Below, one piece after another: positions 5,281 to 25,003 of a DNA stretch of 64,000 nucleotides (position 1 is its first letter; every line of letters begins with the position of its first letter). Both the position numbers and the translations under genes were made by a program. The notes beneath the pieces were generated by a model that saw only the letters and a list, made by a program, of their open reading frames with translations, searched no databases and was not told where the DNA came from. This DNA is from Thermanaerothrix daxensis (lineage in GTDB: Bacteria; Chloroflexota; Anaerolineae; Anaerolineales; Anaerolineaceae): positions 992,001 to 1,056,000 of the forward strand of contig NZ_LGKO01000002.1 in NCBI RefSeq assembly GCF_001306145.1, given 5' to 3'.

Positions 5281-6003
5281 ATGCGCATACTGATAATCTC
5301 AGACATTCATGCCAATCTCCCTGCTCTTGAAGCAGTCTTGCAAGACGCTGGTACTGTAGATGCAGTCTGGTGCCTGGGTGACCTGGTGGATTATGGCCCC
5401 GACCCCAACGAATGTGTGGATTTGATCCGACAACAACCCAATCTGATCTGCTTGTTGGGAAATCACGATGCGGCAGTTTTGGGACGTCTGGATCTTTCTT
5501 ATTTCAACCGCGAGGCTTCGCTCTCGGTGCGTTGGACTCAACAAGCCTTGCGAGAGGATACGCGTCAATTCCTGGAAGGTCTACCTGAGCGTATTGAGGT
5601 AGGCACAAGCACTTTGGTCCATGGTAGTCCGCGCAATCCCCTGTGGGAGTACATGTTGGACCTGAGCGTAGTGGCATCAAACTTTGCCTACTTTGATACT
5701 TCCTATTGTCTGGTGGGGCATACTCACATCCCGGTGGTTTTTTACTTCAATGGCGAATGGATTGAGTGGGTTATTCCCAAAGATGGCGACACAATAGCCT
5801 TGAAAACCCCGGTTATTGCCAACCCCGGTTCAGTTGGGCAGCCGCGCGATCGTGATCCCCGGGCTGCGTATGCTATTTTCGACCCAGAAGCGGGAACCTG
5901 GGAATTTCATCGGGTTGTGTACCCGGTTGAGGCTGTTCAGGAGCGCATTTTAAAGGCTGGGCTGCCCACTTATCATGCTCGCCGATTGAGTGAGGGGGTT
6001 TAA
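5281..6003 (+). CDS. Metallophosphoesterase, YfcE/MJ0936-like
   Basis: This 240-residue cytoplasmic protein of the calcineurin-like phosphoesterase superfamily has the metal-ligand motifs in order: ISDIHAN at the N terminus, GDLVDYGPDP, GNHDAAV, and GHTHIPV in the second half, plus NPGSVGQPRD near the end. Small single-domain members of this group hydrolyse phosphodiesters or phosphomonoesters in vitro. The natural substrate cannot be inferred. It starts 30 bp after coaBC with no clear Shine-Dalgarno sequence. Confidence 0.85.
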   Translation: MRILIISDIHANLPALEAVLQDAGTVDAVWCLGDLVDYGPDPNECVDLIRQQPNLICLLGNHDAAVLGRLDLSYFNREASLSVRWTQQALREDTRQFLEGLPERIEVGTSTLVHGSPRNPLWEYMLDLSVVASNFAYFDTSYCLVGHTHIPVVFYFNGEWIEWVIPKDGDTIALKTPVIANPGSVGQPRDRDPRAAYAIFDPEAGTWEFHRVVYPVEAVQERILKAGLPTYHARRLSEGV

Positions 6004-6076
6004 TTTGTATGGGTGGGGAACTTTGGGCGTTCGCTAACGTCTAGAAGATAGAACCTACCAGAGAGGAGAAGATGCC

Positions 6077-7045
6077 ATGCAAAAAAGAAAAGGACGCCCA
6101 TTCCTGGCGGGAATCGTGCTATTGGGTACGCTATTTTTGGGGGCTTGTGCGCCTAAAAGCATCTCGCCGACCTCAGGGGGAACAGAGGCTTACCCCAAGG
6201 ACATAATGGCACAGCCCACCATGGCGCCATTACCCGCGGAGAGGATGGCCTATCAAGGTGTCTCAAATGTTTATCAGGAGAGTCTCGCCACCGAGACGGA
6301 ACGCATGGTCATCCGTTCAGCCGATTTATCAATTGTAGTGGCCAACCCTGGCCAGGCCATGGATGCCATTATTCGTCTGGCGGATGAGATGAAGGGGTTT
6401 GTGGTCAGTTCCAGCCTGTATCAAACTCAAACCCCCGAGGGTACCCAGGTGCAGGAGGGAACGATAACGATTCGTGTACCGGCTGAGCGGCTAGAAGAAG
6501 CCCTCTCTCGTATTCGGGCCTTAGTCGAAAACCCAGCCACGGATATCCTTTCTCAGAACATTTACGGCAAGGATGTCACGAAGGAATACACCGATTTGCA
6601 ATCTCGGTTGCGCAATTTGGAAGATGCAGCCGAGCAACTGCAGAAGATCATGGACACGGCTACGAAACCCGAAGAGGTCCTTCAGGTTTACAATGAGTTG
6701 CGCCAGGTTAATGAGCAGATTGAGGTTCTAAAGGGGCAAATTAAGTATTATCAAGAATCCGCGGCCATGTCGGCTATTACTGTCACCCTACGGGCGAAGG
6801 AGGCGGTTGCGCCAATAACAATTGGGACCTGGAAACCTGAAGGGGTGGCGAGGGATGCCATTCGGGCGTTGATCCGCGCGTACCAGACGCTAGCCAATGC
6901 GGTGATTTGGTTAGTCCTATTCTGCTTGCCAGTAGCGTTGCCAATTGGCATCGTCGTCTGGCTGATCTGGATGGGGTTCCGCCGCTGGCGTCGGGGGCGC
7001 AGAACTGCTACTAACACTGAAACCACCCCACCTGAGGCCTCATAA
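6077..7045 (+). CDS. DUF4349 domain lipoprotein with C-terminal membrane segment
   Basis: This 322-residue protein has a lipoprotein signal peptide ending in LGACAPK. A Ser/Thr/Pro-rich linker leads to a DUF4349 domain (about residues 75-245), recognisable by the start MVIRSADLSIVV, the central RIRALVENPATDI and a long coiled-coil region (LQSRLRNLEDAAEQLQ). A hydrophobic segment near residues 275-300 and a basic tail (RRWRRGRR) anchor the C terminus. So both ends may be membrane attached. The function is unknown; such proteins are common in Chloroflexota and Firmicutes envelopes. A strong GAGAGGAGA ribosome-binding site precedes the ATG. Confidence 0.82.
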   Translation: MQKRKGRPFLAGIVLLGTLFLGACAPKSISPTSGGTEAYPKDIMAQPTMAPLPAERMAYQGVSNVYQESLATETERMVIRSADLSIVVANPGQAMDAIIRLADEMKGFVVSSSLYQTQTPEGTQVQEGTITIRVPAERLEEALSRIRALVENPATDILSQNIYGKDVTKEYTDLQSRLRNLEDAAEQLQKIMDTATKPEEVLQVYNELRQVNEQIEVLKGQIKYYQESAAMSAITVTLRAKEAVAPITIGTWKPEGVARDAIRALIRAYQTLANAVIWLVLFCLPVALPIGIVVWLIWMGFRRWRRGRRTATNTETTPPEAS

Positions 7046-7068
7046 TTTCAACAAAGCGACCTTATCCC

Positions 7069-7100
7069 CCTTGCCCGGCAAATCCGCTTGTCGGGCAAGG
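7069..7100. terminator. Bidirectional hairpin terminator between convergent genes
   Basis: A 9-bp perfect stem, CCTTGCCCG pairing with CGGGCAAGG, surrounds a 14-nt loop. It lies in the 56-bp gap between the DUF4349 gene (+) and the alpha-galactosidase gene (-). There is no long T run on either strand, so termination efficiency is uncertain. Confidence 0.6.
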
Positions 7101-7101
7101 T

Positions 7102-9462
7102 TCATTTCCAGGCGACATTGAGCGTAGCGGCTTGAGTGAGGTACACCGGAAAGCGATAGAGGCTGGGGGAGACGGTGCTCCACTGGATTGTTTCTCCTTC
7201 CAACCAGGCAGACCGGGGGAATTCGGGTAGATACAGGTATACAGAGCCTGTAGCGGCATGTTGCAAATCCAGACGACAGGTCAGATGTGTCTCTTCGATG
7301 TGCCAGGTTCGCGCTTCCAGCCCTTGACTGATGTGGAGGGTACTTCCAACCCAGGCTGGCTGTTCATCGGGAAGGGGAAATGCGGCGAGTAGGGAGATGC
7401 CATGCGGGGCCAGGGGGGGAAGTTCCAGTGTTGTGTCATCCTCCCATATATGATGACGATCGGTCCAGAAATCATGTAGCAAATAGGGCTTGGAGGCAGG
7501 TAAACGGTAGCGTGAGCGGGTGAGATGGGGCGTAACCGCTTCGTCGCTCCAATTGATAAAAGCAAGGAGATGCCATTCTCCAATGGCCCCGGTCAGATCC
7601 AGGCGGATGTGTGCCGGATGATCAGTTTCGAGAAGGTCTAGGACCTCAGGGCGTTCCTCGATTAATGGAAGCAGCACCTGGGCGATCCTTATCCTCTCAA
7701 TTGGCAAGGTAGTCAAATTATCGGATAGGAGCAGCGACCCTCCACTCAGGGCAATGACACTGGCCAGGGTTTGTACCTCAGGTAGAGTCAGTCGTGTGTC
7801 GGGGCGAAGGAGCAAGCAATCGGGGTCGTTGATCCACCAGCGGCGATGCAAAGGCGCTCGGGTGAGCGTGTTGCGAATGGCGTTATGCGCCGCGGGCATG
7901 TGGGGCTCGCCCTTGAAAAACCACCGATGCCCCAGGTATTCAGGTTGCCACGAACCACTGATATCGGCCCCGATACGCATTGCGTTAACCAACCCTAGGA
8001 CGGACCCAAGAGGGGCGCCGCATCCCAGCAAAAACGTCTCAGTTCCGGCGGCTTGCCGTAAGGTTTCCATTCCCCGACGTAGCACCTGTGCCCGCGTCAG
8101 GGTGGGCTGGTGGTACCTGCCTGGAAGGGCTGCTGCGTAGAGAAAATCCAATTTCAAGTATGGGAATCCCCAGTCATAAACTGCCGTGTGGACAACCTGA
8201 GCCGCATATTCGAGGGCTTGCGGGACGGTAAGATCAAGCGCGGTTGCAAAGGTGTTCCAGACAAAACCGGCATTGACCGGGCGGCCGGAGGGTTTGCGGA
8301 GTAGCCATTCGGGATGCTGGCGGGCCAGTTGAGATTGGGGGTGAACGATGAAAGGCGCCAGCCACAAACCGGCTTGCAAGCCTGCCTCTCTGATTTCTTG
8401 CGCAAGCGGGGCCACTCCATGGGGGAAAGAGGATTTGAAGGTCAACCAATCTCCGACCTGAGACTCAAAGCCATCGTCAATCTGCACAAGGTCCAGCGGG
8501 ACCTCAGAGCGCCAGGATTGAACCCGGAGTAGATTTTCGCGGATGTCTTCCTCAGAGATATTCGTGTAGTAGTAATACCATGAGCACCATCCACGAGGAC
8601 TGGGGGGGAATTCGTCTATCCCATGAACGGCTGCCACAGCCTTCAGGTAGGATTCCAATGGGAATTCAGAGTCGGTGGCGGCAAATGGATAGGCCGCCAA
8701 CCAGTCAGTTTCCATGCTCTTTCCGGGGGCCAAGCGAGTGTGGTCTCCATTTGCCCAGACCCGGAGATGGGGTTGGGGAGTCGTTGAAAAAACCAGACTA
8801 CCAAAGTGTTGCTGCTGAGAGAGAAATCCGACTACCAGCCCCACGTTTTCGAAGGGATTTAGCAACATGGTGAAGAAGTCACTGCTAAATTGGCCTCGGC
8901 GGTGAAATATTGGGGTCCCCGCATTGAGCACCATGGGATTCTGAAAAGGCCCCAGGCGTGAGCGGGGCATACTTTGTTCGGTGTTCAATGTGCCGGTGTA
9001 CGACCAGGATTGCCAACCATTGAGATAAAACCTCAATGGTAGTGGCGACGAACCCAACACCAAGGGGTGGGAGGTAACAGGATTACTGCCATCCAAAAGA
9101 TCAATTTGAGCGATCCAAACCGGGTCTGAGCCTTCGTTGTATAGGCTGAGTTTCCAAAGCCCCCATCTGTGATTATGGGCATTGGCCAGGGTAAGGTTGA
9201 CCCGCAGTCCGGATTCAGATTGTGAAGCGGTCAGCACTTCAACTGTTTCATTCTCAATTGGAAGTGAGGAATCGCTGGAGATTGCTCTGACAGGCTGAAA
9301 ATGATCCGGCCTCCAGTGGTAGCGCTTTCCACGGCAATGGAAGTGGATGCCTAAGCAGAAATGGTTTAACTGGACCTGAGAGGGGGCCTCAGTTTGCAGG
9401 GAGAAGCGCCCCTCCACAGGGTAGAATTGCCATTTGAAAGGTCCTGGGTAAAACCCCGCCAT
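7102..9462 (-). CDS. Alpha-galactosidase-like glycoside hydrolase, GH36 type
   Basis: The 786-residue protein has the layout of a GH36/GH-D clan enzyme: an N-terminal beta-sandwich (about 1-280), a TIM barrel starting near GWCSWYYYY, and a C-terminal beta domain. The barrel shows LVQIDDGFE, the nucleophile motif LKLDF and the presumed acid/base region RIGADISGSW. There is no signal peptide, so it should act in the cytoplasm on imported alpha-galactosides. It is the last gene of a minus-strand cluster, 21 bp after dcd, with no sugar transporter nearby. The exact substrate specificity cannot be read from the sequence. Confidence 0.85.
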   Translation of the reverse strand: MAGFYPGPFKWQFYPVEGRFSLQTEAPSQVQLNHFCLGIHFHCRGKRYHWRPDHFQPVRAISSDSSLPIENETVEVLTASQSESGLRVNLTLANAHNHRWGLWKLSLYNEGSDPVWIAQIDLLDGSNPVTSHPLVLGSSPLPLRFYLNGWQSWSYTGTLNTEQSMPRSRLGPFQNPMVLNAGTPIFHRRGQFSSDFFTMLLNPFENVGLVVGFLSQQQHFGSLVFSTTPQPHLRVWANGDHTRLAPGKSMETDWLAAYPFAATDSEFPLESYLKAVAAVHGIDEFPPSPRGWCSWYYYYTNISEEDIRENLLRVQSWRSEVPLDLVQIDDGFESQVGDWLTFKSSFPHGVAPLAQEIREAGLQAGLWLAPFIVHPQSQLARQHPEWLLRKPSGRPVNAGFVWNTFATALDLTVPQALEYAAQVVHTAVYDWGFPYLKLDFLYAAALPGRYHQPTLTRAQVLRRGMETLRQAAGTETFLLGCGAPLGSVLGLVNAMRIGADISGSWQPEYLGHRWFFKGEPHMPAAHNAIRNTLTRAPLHRRWWINDPDCLLLRPDTRLTLPEVQTLASVIALSGGSLLLSDNLTTLPIERIRIAQVLLPLIEERPEVLDLLETDHPAHIRLDLTGAIGEWHLLAFINWSDEAVTPHLTRSRYRLPASKPYLLHDFWTDRHHIWEDDTTLELPPLAPHGISLLAAFPLPDEQPAWVGSTLHISQGLEARTWHIEETHLTCRLDLQHAATGSVYLYLPEFPRSAWLEGETIQWSTVSPSLYRFPVYLTQAATLNVAWK

Positions 9463-18891: not shown

Positions 18892-20220
18892 TCATGGCGC
18901 GGGATGAGCAATCAGGTCGTTAGGCAAAGCGCTGTCTACGGTGACGGTGAGCATTTCGCCGGGGCTGTGCTGCCCGGGAATTAACACCAGACCATCCACT
19001 TCGGGAGCATCACGGTACGAGCGGCCAACAGATAGATCACGATTAGCACCTTCAATCAGCACAGTCAGGTTTTTACCGATCAGAGACTGATGAATTTGAA
19101 GTGAGATTTTGGATTGCAGTTCCATCAAGCGGTTATACCGCTCCTGTTTAATTTCAGGGGGTACGGGGTCGCCCAGGGGTTCGCTAGCAGTTCCAGGTTC
19201 AAAGGAGTAGGTAAAGGCGCCAACCCGGTCCAGTCGTACTTCAGTCAGAAAGTCGAGCAGTGTTTGGAATTCGGTTTCTGTTTCTCCTGGATACCCGACG
19301 ATAAACGTACTCCGAATTGCCAGGTCAGGCATTGCCCGGCGCATTTTCTCAATTGTCCGATAAACCCATTCCATATTAGCCGGGCGGCGCATCCTGCGCA
19401 GGATCTCGGGATGGGCATGTTGAAGGGGAATGTCCAGATAATGCAGAATTTGGGGATGGGAAGCCATCAAGTCAATCAACCGATCGGTGATGGCGCCAGG
19501 ATAAGTGTAGAGGAGGCGAATCCACGGAATTTCGGGGACTACTTTGACAAGATTTTCCAGCAAGGTAGCCAGCCCATCTTGCATTCCGAGATCATGACCG
19601 TAGTCGGTCGTGTCCTGGGCGATCAAAATCAATTCTTTAACCCCCGCCGCCTGAAGCTGGCGGGCTTCTTCGAGAATGACATCCATGGGGCGGCTGACCA
19701 ATGTGCCTTTGATGAGAGGAATTGCACAGAAGGCGCATGGACGCCGGCAGCCATCGGCGATCTTGAGGTAAGCGCTGACTCCCTCTACAGCAGCCCGGAG
19801 CACCCCCCGTTCGTCGCGCCCGACGGTTGCGTCGTTGGGGAGGTGGTAAAGCGGTTGAGGAGGATGGTTGTTCAAGCGTTCGACCAATTCGAGAATATCC
19901 ATCCAGCGACGGGTGCCGAGCATCCCGTCAATACCGGGGACCTCTTGGGCAACTTGTTCACGATAACGCTGCGTTAAGCAGCCTGTGGCGATCAACATTT
20001 GGCCTTTGCGTTTTTTGCGGGCCAGCTTAGCCAGTGTATTTAGGGATTCTTCACGCGCGGGCTGGATGAAGCCACAAGTGTTGACAATAAGAAATTTTGC
20101 CTCGCGAGGATTATCTATGGCTTCATATCCTGCGCGCTGGAGCAGGGCAGCCATTGAGTGCGAATCCACCGTGTTTTTAGCGCAGCCTAACGATACCAGG
20201 TAAAAGGTTTTCTCACTCAT
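18892..20220 (-). CDS. rimO: Ribosomal protein S12 methylthiotransferase
   Basis: The 442-residue radical-SAM enzyme adds a methylthio group to an Asp of ribosomal protein S12. Three domains are visible. The N-terminal UPF0004 domain has the auxiliary-cluster cysteines (SLGCAKN, NTCGF, ATGCLTQR). The radical SAM domain has CRRPCAFC. The C-terminal TRAM domain starts near residue 375. RimO is preferred over MiaB because of GRSYRDAPEVDG near the C terminus and the S-L-G-C-A-K-N start. Its ATG overlaps the stop of the upstream RodZ-like gene by 4 bp. Confidence 0.93.
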   Translation of the reverse strand: MSEKTFYLVSLGCAKNTVDSHSMAALLQRAGYEAIDNPREAKFLIVNTCGFIQPAREESLNTLAKLARKKRKGQMLIATGCLTQRYREQVAQEVPGIDGMLGTRRWMDILELVERLNNHPPQPLYHLPNDATVGRDERGVLRAAVEGVSAYLKIADGCRRPCAFCAIPLIKGTLVSRPMDVILEEARQLQAAGVKELILIAQDTTDYGHDLGMQDGLATLLENLVKVVPEIPWIRLLYTYPGAITDRLIDLMASHPQILHYLDIPLQHAHPEILRRMRRPANMEWVYRTIEKMRRAMPDLAIRSTFIVGYPGETETEFQTLLDFLTEVRLDRVGAFTYSFEPGTASEPLGDPVPPEIKQERYNRLMELQSKISLQIHQSLIGKNLTVLIEGANRDLSVGRSYRDAPEVDGLVLIPGQHSPGEMLTVTVDSALPNDLIAHPAP

Positions 20221-21587
20221 GGGATCAGGGGGGTAATGGTGGGAGTCGGTTGGGTTGGGGTAGGAGTGGGAGTTAACGTGGGCGGGGGTGTAATTGTTGG
20301 TGTGGTCGTTGTTTGTGGCGTAGGGGTGAGAAGTCCCTCTGCGGTGAAAATTCGATACACAGGTTCCCCCATGGCTCCGGGGACACCCAGATCGGATTGA
20401 TTGAAAACAAGGCGCAGACCAGCGCCGTTTCCGGTGCTGAATTCAATCCGCTGTCTGGCTCCGAATGCATAGACCTGACCGGGGGTTGTGCGACCCTCAA
20501 ATGCAACTTTATCATCTGTGACGACCCGCATCCAGACGCGTAATTGAGCCACCACGTTGAGTTGCAATGGGGCATTGATTGGTGCCGGCGTGAGGGTTTC
20601 GGTTGGGGTCTCCTCAAGAAGTGCTCCTGGTGCCTCTGGGCTGCTACCGGAGGCCTCGAGGGAGATTTCTGATGTGGGGGTGAATGACTGGACTGGGGCA
20701 GAGGGAGCCAGGGCGAGCACCTCGGCAATGGAAGGAGGGGTGGGTTGATTCTTGGCGCTCTGAGCGGCGGAGATGCGGATGGCTCCCCATACTGTAAAGC
20801 CTAAAAGGGCGACAATAAAACCAATTGCAATGATCAAATCGGGTGAGAGAATTCGCCGCCAGGAGAGCGTAGGGGCTGAAACTGGGGCGGCTGATTGAGT
20901 AGTCCCAGACCGCCCAGGTCCTTTTTGCGCGAGGGTACGTTCTAAACGGCGTTGCTGGAGCGCTTCGGCAAAGCGCAGAAGTACCTGATCCTTATCCAGT
21001 CCAAGAAAAGCAGCATAATTTTGCAGCATGCCGCGTGCATGAACCAGAGAGGGCAATTGATCCATCTGAGCGGCTTCAAGAGCGGCAAGGTGGTGGGAGC
21101 GAATGTGTGTGGCCGAAGCGGCTTCTTGTAAGGTAAGTCCCAGGCGTTCGCGTTGTTGCCGTAAGGTGAGACCAATTTCCTGGAAAAGTTGCTCAGAAGA
21201 TGAAGTAGTGGAAGGGCTTTTGGGTTGGGAGGTGGCCCAATAATCTATCACCTGTTCGTCCGGTTCTGGGGTCGGGGGTTCTTGGGTTGAGGATGAGGCA
21301 ATGGCAACGACAGAGTTTTCCCCTTGAGTGGGTGTGCCGGTATCTTCTGCGCCTCCCTTCTTCCCTTCCCAGAGGTCAAGCAAGGGCTGACTTGGGATTT
21401 TCAAGAACCCCGCATAAAGTCGTAGAAAGCCCCGCGCCTGAACCATTGAAGGAAGAAGGTCCAGGCGATCATCTTCCAACGCTTCCAGGTAGGCCACCCG
21501 AATATGGGTGGCCTGCGCAACCTGCTCTAGCGAAATGTTGCGCTCTAGGCGGGCTTTTCTGAGAACTGATCCGACCGTTTCGGTCAT
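20217..21587 (-). CDS. RodZ-like protein with two N-terminal helix-turn-helix domains
   Basis: The 456-residue protein has two RodZ-type HTH domains in tandem (about 1-68 and 135-205), each with the pattern LxxARxxRxxSLEQ/TLQExAxATHIRxxxLxALE and a similar second half (PSMVQARGFL, PSLVHARGML). One transmembrane helix follows near residue 265, then a periplasmic linker, a DUF4115-like beta domain and a Thr/Pro-rich tail. RodZ usually has a single HTH and links MreB to the membrane. The ATG at 21587 matches the family start (MTETVGSVLRKAR). It is translationally coupled to rimO. No mreB is in view. Confidence 0.8.
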   Translation of the reverse strand: MTETVGSVLRKARLERNISLEQVAQATHIRVAYLEALEDDRLDLLPSMVQARGFLRLYAGFLKIPSQPLLDLWEGKKGGAEDTGTPTQGENSVVAIASSSTQEPPTPEPDEQVIDYWATSQPKSPSTTSSSEQLFQEIGLTLRQQRERLGLTLQEAASATHIRSHHLAALEAAQMDQLPSLVHARGMLQNYAAFLGLDKDQVLLRFAEALQQRRLERTLAQKGPGRSGTTQSAAPVSAPTLSWRRILSPDLIIAIGFIVALLGFTVWGAIRISAAQSAKNQPTPPSIAEVLALAPSAPVQSFTPTSEISLEASGSSPEAPGALLEETPTETLTPAPINAPLQLNVVAQLRVWMRVVTDDKVAFEGRTTPGQVYAFGARQRIEFSTGNGAGLRLVFNQSDLGVPGAMGEPVYRIFTAEGLLTPTPQTTTTPTITPPPTLTPTPTPTQPTPTITPLIP

Positions 21588-21606
21588 GGTCTTTGGCTTC
21601 TGGTTC

Positions 21607-21649
21607 AAAAAAAGACCGGCCTATCAGCACATGGCTGGGTCTGGCCGGT
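21607..21649 (-). terminator. Rho-independent terminator after rplI
   Basis: On the minus strand a 7-bp stem ACCGGCC/GGCCGGT, with an inner CAGC/GCTG stem, is followed by seven T residues (A run at 21607-21613 on the plus strand). It lies 26 bp after the rplI stop and 20 bp before the RodZ-like ATG, so rplI is probably a separate transcript. Confidence 0.85.
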
Positions 21650-22386: not shown

Positions 22387-22749
22387 ATGGCACGTACAAA
22401 ACCCGAGGCCCAACCCGAACCTGAGCGTGAGGCTCCACCATCATGGTATGAACTCTCGCGAAAAATCCTATTGGCGAGTATTGGGGCGGCCGCTCTGGCT
22501 AAGGATGAAATTGTCCAGTTTATTGAGCGGCTGGTTGAAAAAGGGGAAATTGTGGAGCGTGACGCTCGCCGTCTGATCCAGGAAGTGCTTGAGGAGCGCG
22601 AACGTCTGGAACAGGAGCGTAAGGCTAAACAAACCCAAGTGGGTACTGCGTCCCCGGCTACAAAGGCAGATATCGAAGCCTTAAGTGCCCGCATAGCGGA
22701 GTTACAGAAACGGATTGAAGAACTTCGCAAACAACAGCAACAAGGTTAG
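22387..22749 (+). CDS. Phasin-family protein (polyhydroxyalkanoate granule-associated type)
   Basis: This 120-residue protein has a short Pro/Glu-rich start, a hydrophobic-amphipathic segment (SRKILLASIGAAALAKDE) and a long charged coiled coil to the C terminus, which is the layout of the PhaF/PhaI-like phasin group. Phasins coat polyester granules. The next gene is a PhaR-type regulator, which supports the call. No PHA synthase is in the window, so binding another surface cannot be excluded. A strong GGAGGTG ribosome-binding site precedes the ATG. Confidence 0.75.
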   Translation: MARTKPEAQPEPEREAPPSWYELSRKILLASIGAAALAKDEIVQFIERLVEKGEIVERDARRLIQEVLEERERLEQERKAKQTQVGTASPATKADIEALSARIAELQKRIEELRKQQQQG

Positions 22750-22759
22750 GTTCATCTGA

Positions 22760-23305
22760 ATGGTGGAGATTCTTATCAAACGTTACAACAACCGCAAGTT
22801 ATACAATACTGCACAACGGTGCTATGTAACGCTTGAGGATATCGCGAATTACATTGCATTGGGACACACTGTAAAAGTGGTGGATCATGAAAGTGGGCAG
22901 GATTTTACCACCACGATTTTAGCCCAGGTCATTGTGGATCAGGAACGGCGCTTGGGTGGCTTGCTACCCCGATCTCTGCTATCACGCTTGATTCGTATTG
23001 GCGAATCTCATGTGAACGAGTTGAGCGAGAGTCTTCAGGCGTTTCTGGCTCCTCAAGAATTTGTCAATCGTCATATTCGTCTCCGCCTCGAACGCCTAAA
23101 GAGACGAGGTGACCTGGACGAGAGCGAATTTGAGCGCCTGATAATGGGATTGCTTGACCCTGAAATTCAGATTGAAGGGGCAAAATCCTGCCAGGACTCT
23201 GAAGACGAATCCAAAGAGGTACACTCCGAAATTGAGCAGCTCTGGCAGGACCTCGAGGCTTTGGAGAGGGCGGTAGATGCTCTCGCCCGCCCTCCCAAGT
23301 CTTGA
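22760..23305 (+). CDS. PhaR-type polyhydroxyalkanoate synthesis regulator
   Basis: This 181-residue protein starts with the PHB/PHA accumulation regulator DNA-binding domain (about residues 3-64), with the signature IKRYNNRKLYNT, YVTLEDIANYI and GQDFTTTILAQVI. The remainder is helical and charged, with a coiled-coil end. PhaR is a repressor that binds DNA and PHA granules in proteobacteria. It lies 10 bp after the phasin gene in one operon, so it probably controls both through the palindromes at 22329-22369. Ligand sensing here is inferred only. Confidence 0.85.
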   Translation: MVEILIKRYNNRKLYNTAQRCYVTLEDIANYIALGHTVKVVDHESGQDFTTTILAQVIVDQERRLGGLLPRSLLSRLIRIGESHVNELSESLQAFLAPQEFVNRHIRLRLERLKRRGDLDESEFERLIMGLLDPEIQIEGAKSCQDSEDESKEVHSEIEQLWQDLEALERAVDALARPPKS

Positions 23306-23317
23306 GGTTGTGACTTT

Positions 23318-25003
23318 TTAATGCAGCGCCTGAGGGATAAAGGCTCCAAAGAAGCGCTTGAAAATCTCAAATCGGCCGGTGCGTCCAACGTGATTAGGAT
23401 GGTTTTCCTCCCAGAGCGCACTTAAGGTGGCTACGACATCATTGGCATCCAGGGTGGAGCCATCTACGAATCGAACACCTGGGCGCAAGTGGAATGTCCA
23501 TTCTGTGGCCTCCGAATTAGCCTCCCAGGCCTCGGCCAGGCCAGGGCGGATCGTGGTGCCGCCAGGTTCGTATTCTACCAGCGTGCTGTAGAGCAACCGG
23601 GTCACGCGCAAGGTGTTGGGGTCACTTTCGTCGGCTGGCCAGAGCGATTCGGGTTCACGGCTTTGGGTGATGCGAATCTGTCCGTCGGCGGAGCGCATTT
23701 CTTCGAAATTTTCATTAACAGGCCCAATGCGCTGGCCTTGAATTGTGGTACGAAAGGCGTAAATCCCATTTGTATGGGCAATGGGGATGGCTGGGACCAA
23801 CTTTATAATGCTTTCATTAATCCGGTCGTAAATCCTCTGGCGTTCCTGTGGGTCGGATGTTTGGGCTGCACGTTGAATGAGACTAACCAATTCGGGGTAG
23901 GGGGAGCCCAGAGGTGTTGACTCATTGATGAAGACTCGAGAGAAGAAATCATCGGGATCGGCGTAGGTGGCGCTCCAGGTGGCTAAGAATAGAGGAGCGC
24001 TGCCGGTGCGGAGGACTTGATTATAAGCCGCCGAATCCAGCGGTCTGAGCGTGACCTTTAGCCCCAGTGAGTTGAGTTGTAATTTGATCTGCTGGGCGAG
24101 CATTTCTATATAGGGGGCATCCAGGGGCGGGTTGGAGGGATAGACAATAACCAGTTCTTGGCTCCAATCGAACCCGCTCTGCCTTAATAGGTCCTGGGCT
24201 TCCTTAGGGTTGTAATCCAGCCAGTTTAATCCCGGTGTGTACCCCAGGTTCATGGCTGGTGGGAGGAATTGATTGGCCAGAACTGAGTCGGAGGCTAATC
24301 CATAAGCAATCAAGCGAGGGCGGTTCAGCGCCATGGCGATGGCGGTACGTACGCGCACATCGTCAAAGGGCTTGATCTGATTGTTGAATCCCAGATAAGT
24401 AACATTCAACGCAGTTTGATAAACCGGGGCTACCCCCACAAAAGTCTCGAGTGTGGGTAAGAAGTTCGCACTCAGACCGTCAATCGCATCCGTTTGCGCA
24501 TTGCGCAGGAGGACGATTCGTGAGATGACCGAGCCTTGCCAGTTGATGATAATTTTCTGACTCTTGGGAGGTACTCCCCAATAATCGGGATTGCGCTCCA
24601 GCACAATCTGTTGACCAGGGTCATAACGTAGCAGGCGATAGGGCCCACTGGCGTTAGGAACCCGACTCAGTTCTACTGAATTTCCACCATGCCGGTTCAA
24701 GTAATCGCTATCCTGGATGGCAAAGACCGGGTAAGCCAGTTTGGCCGGGAGAGCGGCGTCGGGACGACAGAGGGTGAGACGCACCGTGTTCAAGTCAACC
24801 GCCTCAATGGCTTTGATAAGCCCCCCATAGGAACAATCATTCGTATAGGCTCGAGAGAGCTCAGGTGGAGCAGCCCCACGGACAATTTGAAAACCTTCGC
24901 TCTGGCAGGCTGTAAGCGAGAACACAAGCAGTAGAAGAGCCAGCCAGATCGGAATCGAGGCTAGAGATGGAAATGAGGGAGAGAATAGAGAATCTCGCTT
25001 CAT
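23318..25003 (-). CDS. Circularly permuted family 5 extracellular solute-binding lipoprotein
   Basis: The 561-residue protein has a lipoprotein signal ending in LTAC (Cys33) and belongs to SBP_bac_5 (oligopeptide/nickel type). The segment order is rotated. Residues 58-450 start with SYGGLIKAIEAVDL and run through GPYRLLRYDPGQQIVLERNPDYWG, LGFNNQIKPFDDVRVR and the DPQERQRIYD helix, normally the middle and end of the family. Residues 451-561 then supply what is normally the mature N terminus: GQIRITQSREPESL, LLYSTLVEYEPGG, RPGLAEAWE, WTFHLRPGVRFVDGS and ANDVVATLS. All parts are present once. No permease or ATPase gene is adjacent. The ligand is unknown. Confidence 0.88.
   Translation of the reverse strand: MKRDSLFSPSFPSLASIPIWLALLLLVFSLTACQSEGFQIVRGAAPPELSRAYTNDCSYGGLIKAIEAVDLNTVRLTLCRPDAALPAKLAYPVFAIQDSDYLNRHGGNSVELSRVPNASGPYRLLRYDPGQQIVLERNPDYWGVPPKSQKIIINWQGSVISRIVLLRNAQTDAIDGLSANFLPTLETFVGVAPVYQTALNVTYLGFNNQIKPFDDVRVRTAIAMALNRPRLIAYGLASDSVLANQFLPPAMNLGYTPGLNWLDYNPKEAQDLLRQSGFDWSQELVIVYPSNPPLDAPYIEMLAQQIKLQLNSLGLKVTLRPLDSAAYNQVLRTGSAPLFLATWSATYADPDDFFSRVFINESTPLGSPYPELVSLIQRAAQTSDPQERQRIYDRINESIIKLVPAIPIAHTNGIYAFRTTIQGQRIGPVNENFEEMRSADGQIRITQSREPESLWPADESDPNTLRVTRLLYSTLVEYEPGGTTIRPGLAEAWEANSEATEWTFHLRPGVRFVDGSTLDANDVVATLSALWEENHPNHVGRTGRFEIFKRFFGAFIPQALH

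Follow-up and report, generated by a model that had tools for sequence, protein, structure and literature searches.

A gene in the stretch of Thermanaerothrix daxensis DNA analysed here (64 kb, referred to as the window) encodes a family 5 solute-binding protein (SBP) in which the order of the chain is circularly permuted, the canonical N-terminal segment following the canonical C-terminal end. On the whole evidence, it is likely that this protein, P0001, is a lipid-anchored, extracytoplasmic SBP representing an inherited and widespread rotation of the family. The ligand, purpose and origin of the rotation are inferred, and no expression, ligand or transport data are available.

The 561 aa P0001 sequence, translated from the window, scored 237.7 bits against the PF00496 (SBP_bac_5) profile, for which the curated cut-off is 32.4. 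Homology to this family is not in doubt, and it is the chain order that departs. Profile positions 62-361 matched residues 60-358 of P0001, and a second stretch (profile 2-54; G000:C1:1015393-1015551) was found downstream of the first, hence a single collinear N-to-C match was not obtained. Searches of PDB sequences with phmmer gave the same picture, with positions 145-530 of the DppA structure 5f1q corresponding to P0001 residues 56-435 and positions 60-144 to residues 471-549, and with 3m8u positions 119-491 corresponding to residues 56-423 and positions 10-118 to residues 448-549. The order is reversed and each part is present once. The sequence includes LTAC33, which we take to be the lipobox cysteine site of a bacterial lipoprotein (read from the sequence, without a predictor), and on this reading P0001 has the signal peptide with a lipobox cysteine that defines a bacterial lipoprotein. 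After this signal and a linker, the chain starts inside the canonical N-terminal third, and the old C-terminal end is joined to the old N-terminal start via only a few residues (Table 1).

Table 1. Location in the window of the P0001 gene and of the features it encodes
Feature	Coordinates	Strand	Basis
Whole gene, circularly permuted family 5 solute-binding lipoprotein P0001	23318..25003	-	Profile and PDB matches, paralog, model
Signal peptide and lipobox, residues 1-33 (LTAC33)	24905..25003	-	Sequence reading, no predictor
Linker ahead of the new N-terminus, residues 34-56	24836..24904	-	Model (mature 1-5 and 10-13 with pLDDT <50)
Main part, residues 57-436, from the middle of the canonical chain to its C-terminus	23696..24835	-	Equivalent to 5f1q 145-530
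Short junction of old C-end to old N-start, residues 437-439 (approximate)	23687..23695	-	Residues left over in ORF rows
Canonical N-terminal segment at the C-end, residues 440-556	23336..23686	-	3m8u 10-118, 5f1q 60-144
Cys57, next to the new N-terminus; inferred to form a disulfide with Cys79	24833..24835	-	Conservation
Cys79	24767..24769	-	Conservation
Thr346, at the place of the amino-end-binding DppA Asp408	23966..23968	-	Alignment to D436R mutant 8z1z_F; PMC8566422

The mature chain was modelled using AlphaFold2 with a 68-sequence alignment (67 homologs), giving a pLDDT of 90.0 and a pTM of 0.88. Only mature residues 1-5 and 10-13 were listed below a pLDDT of 50, and block means dropped to 66-81 over the last 30 residues. 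DppA-type proteins were the matches of the model in both Foldseek and VIA-align, the Z score for the main part being about 30; in the alignment with 3m8u (Z 31.0, 379 residues), model residues 28-408 were matched to positions 145-531. Model residues 409-529 were left unaligned in nearly all VIA-align rows, though mostly well predicted, which is the outcome expected when a sequential aligner meets a permuted chain. Foldseek sequential TM scores of about 0.5-0.68, in some cases with an rmsd near 10, are also what a permutation would give, but are not proof of one. When folded alone, the old N-terminal segment gave a poor model (pLDDT 70.6), and its best match, the N-terminal part of a dipeptide-binding protein (4qfl 62-150, Z 4.3), lay close to that of an unrelated chain (3.8), which is weak support. 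The mature protein is therefore predicted, on the model only, to retain a complete DppA-type fold with the three domains and two lobes of cluster C SBPs, the moved segment being backed by the confidence of the whole model and by the weak match of the segment alone.

These results bear on a sequence-only reading of the window, which had described P0001 as a permuted family 5 SBP with each part occurring once and with a lipoprotein signal at the new N-terminus. All three claims held. The proposal that residues 451-561 form the N-terminal segment held in part, as the segment begins at about residue 440 (GQIRI occupies 441-445). Of the checks suggested there, alignment to PF00496 gave the two partial matches in reversed order that were expected, structure prediction gave a confident DppA-type model, and the same order was found in other genomes, as described below. 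Neither of the two results that would have refuted it, a single collinear PF00496 alignment or an assembly rearrangement, occurred.

A second permuted gene was identified in the same genome on contig C2. Its product, P0002 (L006), is collinear with P0001 over 504 aa (35% identity) and is the first in an operon with the order SBP-permease-permease-ATPase-ATPase (Pfam BPD_transp_1, OppC_N, ABC_tran and oligo_HPY). The source genome has 11 PF00496 matches in nine genes, two of which are permuted. The permutation is thus supported by sequence, a collinear paralog, the model, the structural alignment and homologs elsewhere.

To describe chain order across loci, three profiles were made from proteins with the P0001 arrangement (rotation A), S1 and S2 covering the main part and S3 the old N-terminus. 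In the profile scan, the canonical order is S3-S1-S2, rotation A is S1-S2-S3, and a further arrangement, rotation B, is S2-S3-S1. A junction profile (A2) was also made, and a row was counted as spanning the junction if it ran from position 5 or lower to position 161 or higher. Of 61 relatives, 46 gave a match to this profile and 41 had a junction-spanning row, one of the 41 being rotation B. Full-span junction rows were present in 32 of 251 genomes drawn from the phylum, and the 30 loci returned from that draw were all in the S1-S2-S3 order (L182 in two pieces). Junction-spanning matches were also found in 11 of 100 genomes belonging to the same class as G573, a genome labelled Acidimicrobiia. 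A scan of genome contigs revealed at least 521 stretches encoding a relative, and in the best 80, which were kept, the main part was followed by the old N-terminus in every case. As the query included the junction, this search was built to find the rotation A order. A gene for a Dpp-type permease was within 600 bases downstream in 72 of the 80, an ATPase gene in one, and neither in seven.

How common the permuted order is was gauged in control genomes. In 31 genomes from the phylum of G573, visual inspection of 117 PF00496 matches revealed permuted pairs in just two genomes, G573 (two genes) and G677 (one), and in 23 Chloroflexota genomes at least six permuted genes (G000 twice, G047, G060, G357 and G361) were present among 150 rows, indicating that permuted forms are a minority among family 5 SBPs. 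An apparently permuted match at G360:C211 was rejected, as the gene is cut by the contig end. Among 167 rotation A ORF rows, which may include copies of one gene, the joint amounts to 3-9 residues in 161, hence there is no space for an internal signal peptide or linker in those 161. Two adjacent rotation A SBP genes were observed in G007 (L053; 4061-5800 and 6161-7927, minus strand). Divergent permuted SBPs resembling rotation A head full operons in L212 (3340-5061) and L213 (3372-5084), from two MAGs labelled Actinomycetota and Acidimicrobiia, and these may conceivably represent another, separate rotation.

An artefact of assembly or binning, in which a canonical gene was split and its pieces put together anew in the contig, has in its favour that the genomes are drafts and that rotation B comes from a single 9-kb contig. 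However, the same order is found in P0002, on another contig and collinear with P0001, in a syntenic genome of the same genus (L199), and in all 80 of the best scan loci, which include one from the named strain Bellilinea caldifistulae GOMI-1, and a cysteine pair is shared across rotation A proteins. This explanation is all but ruled out.

The cysteine pair consists of Cys57 and Cys79, the only cysteines in P0001 other than that of the lipobox. Both are present in 119 of 133 rotation A rows. The 14 rows without the full pair comprise four fragments that do not include that end (L050, L060, L087 and L182), eight that lack only Cys57 (with a nearby cysteine in L079 and L124), and L212 and L213, which lack both. 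No cysteine was found at either place in any of 10 canonical rows. In the model the two residues lie on either side of the hairpin that comes first in the rotated chain (strands at mature 31-38 and 41-46), and it is therefore proposed that they form a disulfide holding the freed N-terminus. This staple on the N-terminal strand is an inference, as no distance was taken from coordinates.

All 12 of the listed rotation A ORFs longer than 750 aa (L070, L074, L136, L081, L090, L112, L126, L122, L125, L119, L198 and L046) were found to have another SBP fused in front, belonging to family 3 in nine, to Peripla_BP_6 in two (one cut by the locus end) and to family 1 in one. The new N-terminus therefore serves as a fusion point. 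A haem-type CTKCH motif was observed ahead of the family 3 SBP in L119, L122 and L126, with a Pfam Dehyd-heme_bind match in L119 and L122.

The sequence-only reading concerned one protein, and the evidence extends not only to a widespread family but also to further rotations that arose separately. Rotation B is known from one protein in G009 (L045), encoded within an AtpD-AtpF-SBP-PermB gene run. In a second subfamily, a different arrangement (rotation C) was found in L047, L048 and L049, which align with canonical L054 as two blocks in exchanged order (57-68% identity), and also in L139, L140 (a fragment), L141 and L207. Rotation D was found in L151 and L152, and probably in the fragment L148. 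L211, at a contig start in Bellilinea caldifistulae, belongs to a third subfamily and is of the C type, residues 30-267 corresponding to canonical 387-626 and residues 286-603 to 50-365. A C-type rotation in another lineage is encoded by L225 of G677 (5637-7382, minus strand), which follows genes for a canonical SBP, two permeases and two ATPases; the rotated gene closes a gene run already opened by a canonical family 5 SBP.

To place the cuts, published domain limits of BbOppA4 (domain I, 30-62, 187-285 and 504-530; domain II, 63-186; domain III, 286-503; PMC5736914) were transferred by alignment offset and not by superposition. On this approximate mapping, it is inferred that cut A lies within domain II and cut B within domain III, that cut D is near the boundary from II to I, and that cut C is in a loop shortly past the crossing from I to III, so that rotation C would make each lobe nearly continuous along the chain. 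The old termini may be joinable because both belong to domain I.

The number of events was examined in trees built after each protein had been restored to the canonical order. Rotation labels were fixed by chain order before the trees were made, and the AU tests followed the first tree showing two C groups. Rotation A rows were thinned from 127 to 33, of which 29 entered a 67-row tree; L050 and L182, which look split, and the fragments A_L121, A_L084 and C_L140 were omitted. In this tree a single clade (SH-aLRT 99) holds A and B, with B nested in A. Among the canonical rows, C appears at two separate positions and D at one. The same placement of C and D was recovered in a careful 24-row tree of the second subfamily, from which four near-copy canonical rows and C_L140 were omitted. 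A 37-row tree that includes L211 and L225 requires seven changes when all site-C rows share one label, though its rows were picked by hand and only four are of rotation A. It is therefore likely that about seven rotations of family 5 SBPs are represented in the sample, with one loop near the lobe hinge reused. Seven is an estimate because L225 and some canonical rows have long branches and a return to the canonical order is not excluded. Two constrained topologies were rejected in AU tests, namely a single origin of all site-C rotations (p 0.00015; six C rows in the 24-row tree) and one clade of site-C rows including L211 and L225 (p 3e-83; eight rows, L225 being a long branch).

An alternative explanation for the order is that the segment at the C-end was captured from a different SBP gene and is not the protein's own N-terminus, a possibility that the authors of the TpMglB-2 study raised for their own protein (PMC4990184). 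Consistent with capture, the best canonical match is not the same for the two parts, being L196 for the main part and L193 for the N-terminal segment of P0001, and L194 and L051, respectively, for P0002. However, the canonical proteins matched by one part come from the same small set as those matched by the other, and the two blocks of rotation C share a single canonical counterpart, at 57-68% identity, making capture very unlikely.

In the preferred reading, that of rotation, each event probably began with an in-frame duplication of the mature part, and the outer pieces were then lost. The tandem duplication with loss of outer halves proposed in the sequence-only reading is a plausible origin, although the ORFs examined included no recognisable duplicated intermediate. 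ORFs longer than 750 aa were considered as intermediates and rejected, as no part occurs twice in them on the S profiles and the 12 of rotation A are SBP fusions. It is proposed that rotation is tolerated because both old termini are in domain I and the linker to the anchor is flexible.

The sequence-only reading had also stated that no ABC permease is adjacent to the P0001 gene, and this held across the whole 64-kb window. The P0002 operon encodes four transporter proteins, and no homolog of any of them was found in the window, in 18 kb around the counterparts in L199 (same genus), L201 and L202, or in L052. The position expected of the SBP of an ABC importer, beside permease genes, is therefore not met by P0001, but is met by P0002 and by 72 of the 80 best homologs. 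In AtpD-AtpF-SBP-PermB-PermC operons, the SBP slot is occupied by a canonical protein in L208 and L209 and by a rotation C protein in L206 and L210, suggesting that rotated forms are most likely ordinary importer receptors.

In DppA, Asp408 and Arg355 hold the ends of the dipeptide, Asp408 binding the amino end (PMC8566422). In a phmmer alignment with the DppA of 8z1z, in which the mutations D436R and R383D are taken to be at mature Asp408 and Arg355 (a 28-residue offset), these positions are occupied by Thr346 and Pro292 of P0001, and the residue pair of DppA-type dipeptide binders is thus not present. An Asp is found at position 346 in 128 of 133 rotation A rows, and the tree mates of P0001 have Asp (L052 and L058) or Glu (L057). 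P0001 also fell well below the cut-off of the DppA equivalog NF043070 (162.1 bits against 1005). As both charged end-binding positions have been lost, P0001 probably binds something other than a dipeptide; that it does not bind dipeptides in the manner of DppA is inferred, without ligand data.

As Thr346 and Pro292 replace the two charged residues, the window gene could encode a receptor for sensing or scavenging that has no transporter partner, or could be a paralog in decay. The loss of the dipeptide-binding charges, the absence of a permease from the 64-kb window and from 18 kb of L199, L201 and L202, and retention of a PAP2 neighbour in L199, L201 and L052 are in keeping with this. On the other hand, the open frame, lipobox, cysteine pair and confident model of P0001 are all intact, and the genome holds a full Dpp-type transporter. 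This alternative is no more than a possibility. In the preferred reading, P0001 would close on its ligand like other Venus-flytrap SBPs and deliver it to a Dpp-type importer whose genes lie elsewhere, such as in the C2 operon headed by P0002, though this partner is a guess; the Cys57-Cys79 pair would staple the N-terminal strand freed by the rotation.

Other genes near P0001 were also recorded. Genes for a phasin-like protein and a PHB/PHA accumulation regulator lie beside the SBP gene (22387-23305); the pair is conserved in L199 and is about 6 kb from the SBP gene in L201 and L202. A RodZ-like protein with two HTH_25 stretches is encoded at 20217-21608 (minus strand).

Rotation may have no function of its own, having been fixed since the fold and a flexible anchor tolerate it. 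That the same operon slot can hold a canonical or a rotated SBP and that there are several different cut points favour this neutral reading, whereas rotation A is widely kept, has its own cysteine pair, and has a new N-terminus used for SBP fusion. The neutral reading could as well be right as wrong, and the evidence does not separate it from an adaptive one. A bolder reading, which as a whole can be put forward only tentatively, is that rotation has been serial with the fold kept, B arising within A and site C being reopened, and that it is an adaptive re-siting of the tether that couples two ligands to one importer. In this scheme, the shift of the N-terminus would move the lipid anchor and create a fusion point, which rotation A would have used for two-receptor lipoproteins (family 3, family 1 or Peripla_BP_6 plus family 5).

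The E. coli DppA and other cluster C SBPs (PF00496) resemble P0001 in family and main-part fold, and in the Dpp-type operons of P0001 relatives. P0001 differs from DppA in its rotated chain, with a new N-terminus in the canonical N-terminal third, in the absence of Asp408 and Arg355, and in being lipid-anchored with no adjacent transporter. The closest precedent, TpMglB-2 (Tp0684) of Treponema pallidum, is a circularly permuted glucose-binding lipoprotein, termed 'Type Ic', with homologs in other bacteria, for which anchoring was suggested as a possible reason for the permutation (PMC4990184). Both are natural circular permutations of a lipid-anchored SBP. However, TpMglB-2 is a Type I (cluster B) sugar binder with another cut, for which PMC4990184 describes a single arrangement, whereas family 5 SBPs show several cut points, one of them reused, and fusions to SBPs in front. 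P0001 does not have the Type Ic fold, as it matches PF00496 and cluster C structures, though no direct comparison with TpMglB-2 was made. A literature search on SBPs and permutation returned mostly biosensor work; the circularly permuted proteins of such biosensors are laboratory constructs and not natural families. Importers of the GlnPQ type have tandem substrate-binding domains, with two SBPs in one chain; here, in contrast, the rotated family 5 SBP shares its ORF with an SBP of family 3, family 1 or Peripla_BP_6. No earlier permuted family 5 SBP was found in the open-access literature searched, which did not cover most subscription journals or bioRxiv preprints. Natural SBP permutation was thus already known from TpMglB-2, but its repeated occurrence, the reuse of one site and the fusion of two receptors in one chain appear to be new.

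Such permuted proteins are hidden when only the single best profile match is considered. Natural circular permutation is usually met as a single old event in a family, whereas family 5 SBPs provide several cases, some with a canonical relative of up to 68% identity and some in the same operon slot. The origin of permutations, their cost to folding and secretion, and the effect of the anchor on the feeding of an importer are therefore open to test. These nutrient-catching surface proteins have been rotated on several separate occasions, apparently with their shape and their transporter partners kept.
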